In this document: piece by piece, positions 29,088 to 32,100 of the stretch
Numbering within the stretch: the first letter of the stretch is position 1
Layout of the letters: each line of letters starts with the position of its first letter
Origin: Allobosea sp.
GTDB lineage: Bacteria > Pseudomonadota > Alphaproteobacteria > Rhizobiales > Beijerinckiaceae
Reading direction: 5' to 3'
DNA: 64,000 nt
Assembly: GCF_017308015.1 (NCBI RefSeq)
Contig: NZ_JAFKFW010000002.1
Location: 372,001 to 436,000, forward strand
Program-made: the position numbers and the translations under genes
Notes under the pieces: generated by a model
Told to the model about the DNA's origin: nothing
The model's input: only the letters and a program-made list of their open reading frames with translations
The model's database searches: none

Positions 29088-29816
29088 ATGACCTGGTCCA
29101 TCGTCGCCCGCGACGCCGCGACCGGCGCCTATGGCGTCGCCGTCTCGACCTGCGCCTTCGCCGTCGGTGCCCGCGTGCCTTATGGCGGCGGGCGGATCGG
29201 CGCGATCGCCACACAGGCCTTCGTCAATCCGCTCTACGGCATCGACGGCCTCCGGCTGCTGCAGGAAGGGCGCTCGGCGGTCGAAATCATCGCGACGCTG
29301 ACCGCGGCCGACGAAGGCCGCGCCCATCGTCAGCTCCATGTCATCGACCGCGACGGCAAGATCGCCTCGCATACGGGCGCAGCCTGCATCGACTGGTGCG
29401 GCGCCGTCGACGGGCCGCAGGTCTCGGTCGCCGGCAACATGCTCGCCGGACCAGAGGTCGTGCAGCAGACGCTGAAGGCCTATATCGCTTCCTCTGCGCT
29501 CGATTTCGACGAGAGGCTGCTGGTGGCGCTGGAAGCCGGCGAGAAGGCCGGTGGCGACAAGCGCGGCAAGCAATCCGCCGCGATCCGCATCTGGAACGGC
29601 GAGCCTGTGCCGAGCATCGATATCCGCGTCGACGACCATACCGACCCGCTGACGGAACTGCGCCGGCTCTGGCGCGTCGCGCATCAGCGCTCGGTGCCGT
29701 TCCAGCAGGCCTCGCCGTCGCGCGGGCGCCCTGCCGGCGTCACCGACCGGGCCGAGCTCGACCGCCTCTGCACGGAATACGCAGCCTCCTGGAACTCCCG
29801 ACATCCGGAGACCTGA
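29088..29816 (+). CDS. DUF1028 domain protein (Ntn-hydrolase-like)
   Basis: The 242-residue protein is a single DUF1028 domain. Landmarks are TWSIVARDAATGAYGVAVST at the N-terminus, GAIATQAFVNPLYG, and SVAGNMLAGPEVVQQTLKAY. The family resembles Ntn hydrolases, in which the residue after Met (here Thr2) could act as nucleophile; that role is an inference. DUF1028 genes are often found beside gamma-glutamyltransferase and peptide-transporter genes, as here. It is the last gene of the plus-strand operon and has GGAG before its start. Confidence 0.85.
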   Translation: MTWSIVARDAATGAYGVAVSTCAFAVGARVPYGGGRIGAIATQAFVNPLYGIDGLRLLQEGRSAVEIIATLTAADEGRAHRQLHVIDRDGKIASHTGAACIDWCGAVDGPQVSVAGNMLAGPEVVQQTLKAYIASSALDFDERLLVALEAGEKAGGDKRGKQSAAIRIWNGEPVPSIDIRVDDHTDPLTELRRLWRVAHQRSVPFQQASPSRGRPAGVTDRAELDRLCTEYAASWNSRHPET

Positions 29817-29899
29817 GCGGCCAAATGCATTCTCGGCGTAGCCGCGTCGTGATAGGCTGACGCTTCGTCATTCTGTCATGCCGACGAGCGGGGAATGCG

Positions 29900-30490
29900 A
29901 TGGCCGATCCCAACACCGAAGCCCTCCAGAAGCGCATCGCCACGCTGGAGGCGCAGGTCGCAGCCCTGTTGCAGGCGATATCCGCGGATCGCGGCGGCAA
30001 TGTCGTCATCAACGCGCCTGGTTCTCTGACCGTCAATTGCGGGATGGGCATCGCGTTCACAGCCGGCAGCGTGATGACGCTGACGGCGGGTGCCAACCTT
30101 GCAGTGACCGCAGGCGCCAATGCCACGATGGTGGTCGGTAACCGCCTGCGCGTCAGCAGCGGCCATGAAGCCTCGTTCGAGACACGAAGTTTCAACGTCG
30201 ACGCGGCAGTGAGTTGCGAGATCGACAGCGGGCAAAACCTCGCCATCACAGCGGGCAAGGACATGGCGATGAGGATCGGAGCGGGTATGGCCGTCAGTGT
30301 CGGCAAGACGCTTGCGATCGAAAGCGCCGACGCAGCAACACTCAAGAGCGGCGATGCCAGGCTCAGCATGAAGAAGGATGGCAGCGTCGAATTGCAGGGG
30401 CGCGATATCGCACTCAAGGCTTCCGGACGCCTCGAAGCCAAGGCGTCCGGCAATGTCACGATCAAGGGATCGAAAATCCTGCAGAACTAG
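29900..30490 (+). CDS. Stand-alone spike-like beta-helix protein with octad repeats (gp5/VgrG C-terminal type)
   Basis: A 196-residue protein without signal peptide. Residues about 6-28 form a short coiled coil (ALQKRIATLEAQVAALLQAI). From residue 34 to the end it consists of about nineteen 8-residue units, for example NLAVTAGA, NLAITAGK, DMAMRIGA, GSVELQGR, DIALKASG and RLEAKASG. This octad period is that of the intertwined triple-stranded beta-helix of T4 gp5 and VgrG tips, and the last 40 residues (KKDGSVELQGRDI, then NVTIKGSK) closely resemble VgrG/DUF2345 ends. No other spike, tail or type VI secretion gene is present. GGGG lies upstream of the start. Confidence 0.75.
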   Translation: MADPNTEALQKRIATLEAQVAALLQAISADRGGNVVINAPGSLTVNCGMGIAFTAGSVMTLTAGANLAVTAGANATMVVGNRLRVSSGHEASFETRSFNVDAAVSCEIDSGQNLAITAGKDMAMRIGAGMAVSVGKTLAIESADAATLKSGDARLSMKKDGSVELQGRDIALKASGRLEAKASGNVTIKGSKILQN

Positions 30491-30523: not shown

Positions 30524-31645
30524 TCAGGTCAGACGACCCCGCGCCGCAACCGGCAGTTCCCCGATCAGCTTGTCGCCGCGCACGGTGATCAGGCGATCGA
30601 CCATATTGACGACGACGCAGACATGGTTCGGCACGACGCGGACGACCTCGCCGACGAGCGGGCGCTTGTTCGAGGCGGAGAGATCGAGGAAGCCGTGCTC
30701 CTCGGCGAATTGCGCGATCCGCGCCGCCGGATATTCGAGGATATAGCCGTGGCCGTCGAGATTGCCCTTGTCGCTGGTCAGCGTCTTCGAGCCTGAATCG
30801 AGGATGCCGCGCTCAGGCCCGGCCCGGCTCACCACGGTCGCATAGACCATGAGCGCGCAATCATCGAGCGTCGCGACGCCGGCCGCGATCTGCATGCGGT
30901 CGTTGAAGATCGAGGTGCCCGAGCGATGCTCGGTCGAGCCCTTGAGCTTGCCGATATGGGGCAGATTGGGCGAGCCGCCGGTCGAGACGATGTCGGCCTT
31001 GAGGCCGACCTCGCGCAGGCCGGCATTGGCGGTGTCGAGGAAGGCCTGCGTGCGCTCCCAGCCATCCTCCGGCGGGTACATCAGGAAGCCGGCGAAGCGC
31101 AGGCCGGGCGAAGCCGCGACCATCCTGGCGAGCTCGACCGCTTCACCGGGCGTCTCGACGCCGGCGCGCTTGCGGCCGGTATCGCATTCGATGACGACCT
31201 CAAGATCACGACCTGCGATCTCCCCCGCCCGCGGCAAGCCGGAGATGGTGACGGGATTGTCGGCGGCGACGATCATGCGGACGCGTCTTTGCAACGCTCC
31301 CAGACGCCCCAGCTTCTCCTCGCCGAGGATGTTGTAGCTGATCAGGATGTCGTCGATGCCGCCATCGGCCATGATCTCGGCCTCGCCGAGCTTCTGGCAG
31401 GTGATGCCGCGCGCACCGGCCTCGATCTGGAGTCGGGCCAGCTCGGGCGATTTATGCGTCTTGATATGCGGGCGATTGGCCAGGCCGGCGGCGTCGCAGG
31501 TCGCCTGAAGGCGCGTGATATTGGCATCGACCTTGTCGAGATCGATCACAACGGCGGGCGTGCCGTAGACGCGGGCGATCTCGGCGGCGAGCGGGGTGGC
31601 GGCAGGCTGATCGACGGCCCTGGAGGTAGTTGCGGTCATGCTCAT
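30524..31645 (-). CDS. PLP enzyme of the D-threonine aldolase / D-serine dehydratase family
   Basis: The 373-residue protein has an alanine-racemase-like barrel followed by a beta domain. The PLP lysine is in PHIKTHKSPE (probably K62). HRSGTSIFND is a family hallmark, and the metal-site motif PNHVC gives H341-x-C343. His-x-Cys resembles zinc-dependent D-serine dehydratase; D-threonine aldolases are reported with His-x-Asp (from memory). It would break down D-serine or D-threonine-like amino acids in the cytoplasm. Its ATG overlaps the RidA stop (ATGA), so the two are translationally coupled. The frame is open upstream, but 31645 is the supported start. Confidence 0.85.
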   Translation of the reverse strand: MSMTATTSRAVDQPAATPLAAEIARVYGTPAVVIDLDKVDANITRLQATCDAAGLANRPHIKTHKSPELARLQIEAGARGITCQKLGEAEIMADGGIDDILISYNILGEEKLGRLGALQRRVRMIVAADNPVTISGLPRAGEIAGRDLEVVIECDTGRKRAGVETPGEAVELARMVAASPGLRFAGFLMYPPEDGWERTQAFLDTANAGLREVGLKADIVSTGGSPNLPHIGKLKGSTEHRSGTSIFNDRMQIAAGVATLDDCALMVYATVVSRAGPERGILDSGSKTLTSDKGNLDGHGYILEYPAARIAQFAEEHGFLDLSASNKRPLVGEVVRVVPNHVCVVVNMVDRLITVRGDKLIGELPVAARGRLT

Positions 31646-32100
31646 GAGTGCACCTTGACGATAACTTCGATCTCGACGGTCATGCGGTTCGGCAGGGAGC
31701 CCATGCCGACGGCCGAACGGGCATGTCGGCCGCGGTCGCCGAGGACGGCGACGAACAGATCCGAGCAACCATTGATGACCTTGGGATGATCGGAGAACTC
31801 GGGCACGGCATTGACCATGCCCAGCAGCTTGACCACCTCGACCTTGTCGAGCGAGCCGGCGGCCTTCTTCATCGCTGCTAGCAGGCCGAGGCCCGTGTGC
31901 CTGGCATGCTCGTAGGCCTGCTCGACCGTGACGTCGGCGCCGACCTTGCCGGTCGGATAGGTACCATCGGCCCGCCTCGGCCCCTGGCCGGAGAGATAGA
32001 CCATGTCGCCGACCTGCTTGAAGCTGACATAGGTGGCGACCGGCGTCGGCATGGCCGGCAGGGTCAGACCCAGCTCCTTCAGCCTGTCTTCGGGGCTCAT
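31642..32100 (-). CDS. RidA-family (YjgF/YER057c) protein
   Basis: The 152-residue protein belongs to the RidA superfamily, in the longer-loop subgroup. Landmarks are the MVYLSGQGPRRADGTYPTGKVG region, EQAYEHARHTGLGLLAAMKKAAGSLDKVEVVKLLGMVN, and MTVEIEVIVKV at the end. RidA hydrolyses reactive enamines and imines such as 2-aminoacrylate released by PLP-dependent serine/threonine dehydratases. It overlaps the start of a PLP enzyme gene by four bases, which fits that role exactly. The start has GAGGAGAG at good spacing. Confidence 0.88.
   Translation of the reverse strand: MSPEDRLKELGLTLPAMPTPVATYVSFKQVGDMVYLSGQGPRRADGTYPTGKVGADVTVEQAYEHARHTGLGLLAAMKKAAGSLDKVEVVKLLGMVNAVPEFSDHPKVINGCSDLFVAVLGDRGRHARSAVGMGSLPNRMTVEIEVIVKVHS

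Follow-up and report, generated by a model that had tools for sequence, protein, structure and literature searches.

Why should the tip of a VgrG spike be encoded as a small gene of its own, outside any phage or secretion cluster? The question is raised by one ORF in the window, i.e. the whole stretch of 64,000 nucleotides that was analysed. The features needed for the argument are as follows.

29900..30490, + strand: stand-alone spike gene of the DUF2345 family, an ORF with an ATG start encoding 196 aa
29915..29983, + strand: predicted N-terminal coiled coil, residues ~6-28 (helix 4-26 in the AlphaFold2 monomer, heptad spacing)
29933..29950, + strand: RhxxhE trimerisation motif RIATLE, residues 12-17, found in 45/45 family members
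29999..30331, + strand: octad-repeat body, residues 34-144, a predicted triple-stranded beta-helix (periodicity, monomer model, PDB folds)
30332..30487, + strand: VgrG-type tip module, residues 145-196, with the KKDG hairpin, the last octads and the KGSKILQN end
29088..29816, + strand: DUF1028 (PF06267) gene, upstream neighbour outside the system, marker of the site
30524..31768, - strand: PLP enzyme gene (Ala_racemase_N and D-ser_dehydrat), downstream neighbour outside the system, marker of the other side

The spike protein matches PF10106 (DUF2345) with 44.1 bits (Pfam cut-off 30.7), and all 45 family members have a DUF2345 match at E<=0.001. Neither the gp27-like hub (PF05954) nor the OB fold (PF04717) appears among its Pfam matches at E<=10, so that the spike cannot be a hub; the remaining Pfam matches are weak and all under cut-off. 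The Francisella-type TssI model of NCBIfam (NF041249) gave 22.2 bits (E 1.1e-4) and did not reach its curated cut-off of 100 bits. PHROGs profiles gave weak matches to baseplate families (E 4.8e-5 and 1.1e-3) and to one family of unknown function (E 1.7e-5). A DNA tandem repeat was looked for and none was found.

When summed over lags 8, 16 and 24, the autocorrelation of residues 29-196 reaches 0.91 for bulky residues (VILMF) and 1.0 for glycine, against a shuffle mean of about 0 with a standard deviation of about 0.13, and 0 of 20,000 shuffles reach either value. The octad repeats of the preliminary description are thus real, and its count of nineteen is replaced by about 20; the phase slips around residues 95-110, and residues 145-158 make a hairpin-like pair of strands. 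A single chain was modelled by AlphaFold2 from the 45-row family alignment (mean pLDDT 90.9, pTM 0.60). In this monomer, residues 4-26 are a helix which directly precedes the octads; it contains no OB fold, and its octad part has hardly any intrachain strands, which is what a helix with hydrogen bonds from chain to chain should show. Foldseek of the monomer against the PDB found nothing at E<=1e-3, and its eight best PDB folds are all VgrG-type spikes (E 1.9e-3 to 0.33). In the sequence search, the two best PDB chains are 9mlp (titled VgrS) and 9jg8 (named VgrG), with E of 3.7e-4 and 1.2e-3. The protein is therefore predicted to be an octad beta-helix with a VgrG tip.

The N-terminus has the 3-4 spacing L9-I13-L16-V20-L23-I27 and the RhxxhE motif, which appears in 0.9% of shuffles of the first 30 residues and which stabilises parallel trimers via g-e salt bridges, as stated in the available part of PMC5940361, citing Kammerer et al. 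2005. Coiled-coil columns without variation in the family alignment include L9, R12, L16, E17 and L23. The length from RhxxhE to the C-terminus, taken modulo 8, is the same in 39 of 45 members, off by one residue in 5 and by four in one; spike-family lengths change mostly in octad steps. The chains would trimerise through their own coiled coil. All this agrees with the earlier proposal of a short coiled coil (residues ~6-28) which could hold together a VgrG- or gp5-like octad helix, probably a trimer. The idea of a cell-surface rod fared worse, as the protein starts MADPNTEALQKR and seems to carry no hydrophobic signal stretch.

The final ~46 residues (MKKDG...GKDI...SGK...KAS...KGSKIxQN) are a VgrG end, with D160, G161, G167, G190 and Q195 among the tip columns without variation in the family; the VgrG-like C-terminus noticed earlier is real, by sequence matches and by this tip module. 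To which VgrG does the tip belong? The KKDG module is present in 14 of 14 non-Bosea VgrG-type tails that we read, which were retrieved through spike similarity and partly chosen by KKDG and are not a VgrG survey (nine from the order, Sulfitobacter, Rhizobium indigoferae, Paracoccus, a gammaproteobacterium and another of the class). It is present in 0 of 24 tails of Bosea T6SS VgrGs, a set that excludes the second VgrGs of some genomes (e.g. G028 and G068), and no Bosea VgrG position coincides with a spike-profile match. Judged by these tails and positions, the spike tip is of another VgrG type than the tip of the resident T6SS VgrG, and the two need not share one PAAR.

Outside Bosea, the stretch that matches the spike runs on upstream into a long frame, and RhxxhE occurs in 2 of 13 such frames, both times far upstream of the matching stretch. 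Among 397 genomes sampled from the order, 13 match at E<=1e-6: four are from the genus (three full-length spikes and the remnant in genome G074), and the other nine fall within open frames of 784-798 aa. Among 385 genomes sampled from the class, 8 match at E<=1e-8, one being the window and the other seven lying in frames of 643-1006 aa; the one tail read in a matching frame (L273) is VgrG-like, and the other matches may be different repeat proteins. On plasmids, 54 records match the spike; among the matches listed (40 of 54), the informative annotations are VgrG/TssI, some with an adjoining tagF, and the others have no annotation, no feature or the label "hypothetical". Two further non-Bosea matches from a search of 61 genomes (L030 and L031; E 0.002-0.003; frames of 377 and 297 aa) were discarded, as their translations are not spike-like. 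A phage origin was rejected as well: tblastn at E<=0.01 against 50,697 phage records gave no match, 63 stretches of viral contigs fitted a pattern and 0 were confirmed, and the PHROG matches are weak.

A profile built from the 45 family members has matches at E<=0.001 in 48 of the 67 genomes of the genus. Presence was set at 47, with G073 counted as present (profile positions 1-89 at a contig end) and G074 as absent (positions 127-188 only, in a frame of 143 aa that lacks the coiled coil); weaker matches elsewhere in Bosea genomes (E 7.5e-6 to 9e-4) were left uncounted. The G074 stretch (L218:4001-4192, on G074:C1) is a degenerate trace of a VgrG or spike tip in a genome without a TssC match, possibly a decaying spike. 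Besides, two open frames of ~6,500 aa (G068:C1:3756577 and G008:C11:486846) match the octad profile faintly and are possibly giant repeat adhesins. Named carriers include B. thiooxidans DSM 9653 and, with 93% identity, Bosea robiniae DSM 26672, which suggests that the window comes from Bosea or a very near relative. Compared with ten close relatives, the spike has dN/dS of 0.10-0.27 in 10 of 10 comparisons, and two upstream metabolic genes have 0.03-0.13; the spike is under purifying selection, yet it evolves faster than these two genes. No internal stop codon occurs in any spike-profile match. The earlier suggestion of a relic is contradicted by this selection, while a domesticated spike fits. 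Among the literature matches listed, no paper is by its title about a Bosea spike and none joins DUF2345, a coiled coil and T6SS; going by that search, the Bosea spike family is undescribed.

For the locations of the spike genes, gene calls came from a simple composition script and gene names from Pfam. Generally, the spike lies between DUF1028 and a D-serine-dehydratase/alanine-racemase-like gene (27 of 36 genomes), a context in which some genomes interpose an MFS transporter, or a LysR gene with chromate transporters. In 8 of 36 genomes it is near an AcrB pump and a photolyase, and in G004 there is a third context, with a DeoR regulator on one side and an FGE-sulfatase/caspase-domain gene on the other; the remaining carriers were assigned to contexts by sequence or by a flanking-gene search. 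Near the G004 spike there are two caspase-domain (Peptidase_C14) proteins (L093:8741-10627 and L093:12517-14031), one of them with an FGE-sulfatase domain. The named neighbours are metabolic, transport or regulatory genes, and no recognised toxin stands beside the spike in the neighbourhoods examined. When 13 T6SS-cluster proteins of the window's genome were compared with 46 spike stretches, the only match was a marginal one at ~4 kb from the spike, to TssF in L113 (E 6e-4, 34% over 87 aa); VgrG, PAAR and the 11 further proteins gave nothing beyond it. The spike is thus a protein of its own outside tail and T6SS clusters, as had been described, and homologues confined to such clusters, which the preliminary description had named beforehand as counter-evidence, are not what the 13 proteins and 46 stretches reveal.

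Two elements precede the gene in the window:

29850..29858, + strand: extended -10-like element TGATAGGCT, 50 nt upstream of the start codon
29828..29834, + strand: CATTCTC block upstream of the -10-like element, conserved in close relatives sharing the DUF1028 context (alignment)

The pattern TGnTAnnnT, picked post hoc, is found 36-55 nt upstream in 25 of 37 spike copies, with 1.4 expected in shuffles (17/27 in the first context, 8/9 in the second, 0/1 in G004), and a sigma-70 scan upstream of the spike reported no site. An operon with DUF1028 is possible by the spacing of 83 nt and is disfavoured by the second genomic context and the -10-like element; with the pattern being post hoc and the scan without a site, these two observations favour a promoter of the spike's own. 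The combination CATTCTC-N15-TGATAGG (29828-29856) is conserved in close relatives and has its sole match in the window there, with 0 of 100 shuffles containing it.

The absence of phage and type VI genes stated earlier holds for the neighbourhood and fails for the genome: on another contig (C3), the window's genome encodes TssC, one VgrG (L105:1602-3464; PF05954, PF04717, Gp5_trimer_C), PAAR (L105:6898-7398) and DUF6931, further T6SS gene names on this contig being our own assignments. At the edge of this cluster there is a 256-aa protein with a sub-threshold NlpC/P60 match (L104:8292-9062), a possible amidase effector. TssC was matched in 52 of the 67 genomes of the genus, absence of a T6SS being taken as no TssC match, for which assembly gaps are possible, chiefly in draft genomes. 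The spike is present in 46 of the 52 genomes with TssC versus 1 of the 15 without, i.e. both in 46, TssC only in 6, spike only in 1 and neither in 14 (Fisher P 5e-9). Six genomes have TssC and no spike (G013, G023, G025, G067, G080 and G088), so the spike is not essential for a T6SS. The one genome with the spike and no TssC, G018, has no VgrG match either; besides the spike it retains a PAAR protein that bears a putative metallopeptidase domain. This PAAR protein (L268:8358-9704 on G018:C23) has the domain at its C-terminus (DUF6782, below cut-off) and is followed by a 150-aa gene without Pfam match (L268:9701-10153); the pair has the look of an orphan PAAR effector, possibly followed by its immunity gene.

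Does this association survive shared descent? On a tree of parE alone, with 66 of 67 genomes (G025 omitted for want of a full parE match; G028 parE, frameshift-split in the record, entered as plain DNA) and with weak nodes down to 0.12, dependent evolution fits better than independent evolution (LR 23.6, P 9e-5), and it does so in the main clade of 59 genomes (LR 19.6, P 6e-4). None of 60 simulated independent spike traits, retained only with 40-54 carriers of 59, reaches the observed LR (maximum 9.5 versus 18.5 observed, same fitting, main clade). The main clade contains seven T6SS-negative lineages (9 genomes), six of which (8 genomes) have no spike. DUF1028 and the downstream gene are still neighbours in all 8 of these genomes; the gap is 55-256 nt in G002, G011, G085, G061, G024 and G006, too short to hold the spike gene, and ~1.07 kb in G065 and G087, where a spike was looked for and none found. 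Among TssC-positive genomes without spike, the gaps are 42 nt in G067, 151 in G088, 163 in G013 and 3859 in G023. Spike presence tracks the T6SS across the genus; a part of the T6SS-negative lineages may have lacked both from the start.

Among the T6SS genes compared, none co-varies with the spike. In some Bosea T6SS clusters there is a 260-aa gene without Pfam match beside PAAR (L105:6048-6830), independent of the spike. Its absence in G067 suggested that it co-varies with the spike, which was ruled out by both types of mismatch: it is missing from seven spike-positive clusters (G022, G066, G076, G027, G009, G010 and G064), not seen in the examined stretches of G008 and G001 either, and present in three spike-negative clusters (G088, G023 and G013).

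What, then, could the spike do? Taking the computed fold family, tip type, trimerisation motif, purifying selection and T6SS co-occurrence, we give about even odds to a detached VgrG tip, trimeric through its coiled coil, which acts in trans with the T6SS, most likely to load PAAR or effectors or to serve as their adaptor. In VgrG, the tip is the surface where PAAR proteins and cargo sit. The N-terminal RhxxhE coiled coil would set the register of three spike chains, and these would form a wound rod of ~20 octads with the VgrG-type tip at its end. Having no gp27 hub and no OB fold, the rod would be unable to join the Hcp tube as VgrG does. The T6SS genes lie elsewhere in the genome, and the rod would most likely serve their products in trans from the cytoplasm, taking hold of a PAAR protein or an effector as an adaptor or loading tip and bringing it to the VgrG spike. 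The trimer, the PAAR or effector binding, the VgrG contact, and the partner, timing and site of action are what we infer here. The role is supported by a published stand-alone DUF2345 protein that binds VgrG and a toxin, bridging both (e.g. DUF2345-PAR of E. coli PAR; PMC10673891, in the excerpt available). Against it, the spike gene is unaccompanied by vgrG, PAAR or recognised toxin genes in the neighbourhoods examined, unlike published DUF2345 adaptors; the six TssC-positive genomes without spike, the G018 spike without TssC and VgrG, the difference in tip type from the resident VgrG, and the lack of a co-varying T6SS gene among those compared also count against it.

It is possible, at well below even odds, that the spike in trans forms part of a two-part spike, in which a short VgrG encoded in the T6SS cluster and a free self-trimerising tip, encoded elsewhere and variable in length by octad steps, would together offer PAAR or effectors a second docking face, of another VgrG type, without a second VgrG. 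If this were true, tip and hub would evolve and be exchanged as separate genes.

The first of the rival explanations, which we consider doubtful, is modelled on TvpC, a predicted trimeric VgrG mimic without Gp27 which, in Serratia, joins PAAR in a pre-complex and gives way to VgrG1, according to the accessible text of PMC13373197: the spike would hold PAAR in such a pre-complex until VgrG replaces it, and would never be fired. A match to DUF3540, the class III TvpC family, at E<=0.001 in 6 of 45 members speaks for it in addition to the Serratia precedent. The window spike itself reaches 15.5 bits with DUF3540 versus a cut-off of 27.9, has no DUF6484 match among those listed and no OB fold in its model, and PAAR does not adjoin it; TvpA (DUF2169), which Tvp systems share, has 0 matches in the window's genome (G000) and is found in 9 of 67 genus genomes. 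Membership in TvpC was therefore rejected by the DUF3540 score, the missing OB fold and the missing DUF2169, and the adaptor is preferred over a TvpC-like role because DUF2169, the defining Tvp partner, is missing from the window's genome.

We regard it as unlikely that the spike is a domesticated rod with a cytoplasmic function unrelated to T6SS, the co-occurrence reflecting a shared lifestyle. Its orphan position in three different neighbourhoods and the exceptions in both directions (six TssC-positive genomes without spike; G018 with spike and without TssC) would suit such a rod, but the association survives the tree-based test with its simulated null, and T6SS-negative genomes keep the flanking genes with no spike between them.

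Similarly improbable is a fired needle, i.e. a trimer that the T6SS would carry on or in its tube and deliver, either as a second spike in the manner of the short Francisella VgrG or as rod-shaped cargo. The Francisella VgrG, of 164 aa, is said to lack gp27 and the OB fold and to be co-secreted with PdpA (PMC5924787 and PMC8632748, each in part), and the spike weakly matches the Francisella-type model; the 22.2 bits are far under the 100-bit cut-off, however, and a full VgrG is already present in the genome. A decaying, functionless fragment of a lost VgrG, suggested by the VgrG-end sequence and the degenerate trace in G074, is very improbable given the dN/dS range in all ten comparisons, RhxxhE in 45/45 members and the lack of internal stops.

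With the adaptor or loading tip as the preferred reading, the spike family looks like a VgrG tip turned into an independent, selected gene that still tracks the T6SS across the genus. Parts of T6SS are usually sought inside T6SS or vgrG clusters, and cluster-based annotation could miss parts like this one. The Bosea spike offers a clean test of whether VgrG tips can act in trans, and for structural work it would provide a small beta-helix of gp5 type that brings its own coiled coil for trimerisation and varies in length by octad steps.

Several known systems resemble the spike; those from the literature are compared as far as excerpts of the sources describe them. Like the spike, the stand-alone adaptors have DUF2345 as a separate gene. 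They sit in the vgrG locus (at most three genes downstream in the scan), whereas the Bosea spike is an orphan in metabolic or other surroundings, with its own coiled coil and no recognised toxin adjoining; a vgrG-locus position with a link to a toxin, which marks these adaptors, was seen in none of the 46 stretches. TvpC (DUF3540/DUF6484) is alike in being small and predicted trimeric, without gp27 and with a VgrG-like tip for PAAR, but it has an OB fold and belongs with TvpA and PAAR, and the spike has a coiled coil instead. The short Francisella VgrG (NF041249) is likewise a needle only, of similar size and without gp27 or OB fold (PMC5924787, in part); its gene is inside a T6SS island, with PdpA proposed as the head, whereas Bosea has a full VgrG besides the spike. 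T4 gp5 shares the triple-stranded octad (VxGxxxxx) helix at its C-terminus, but bears further domains (PMC4576200, in the portion available), and the Bosea spike has no tblastn match in phage records.

The VgrG ends of Rhizobium, Paracoccus, Sulfitobacter and others have the same octads and KKDG...KGSKIxQN tip, at 29-40% identity over up to 94% of the spike query; they are fused to a long VgrG with no RhxxhE near the join, whereas the spike is separate and has the motif. In VgrGi of Acinetobacter baumannii, DUF2345 (688-834) comes immediately after a predicted coiled coil (667-687), and the parts are thus ordered as in the spike (PMC6960284, as excerpted). There, both belong to a complete VgrG that has gp27 and OB domains; a coiled coil with DUF2345 is therefore already known as a piece of VgrG, and the unusual point in Bosea is only that it exists separately. 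In conclusion, stand-alone DUF2345 adaptors, VgrG mimics such as TvpC and needle-only VgrGs are already published, and the Bosea spike is a variation on them.
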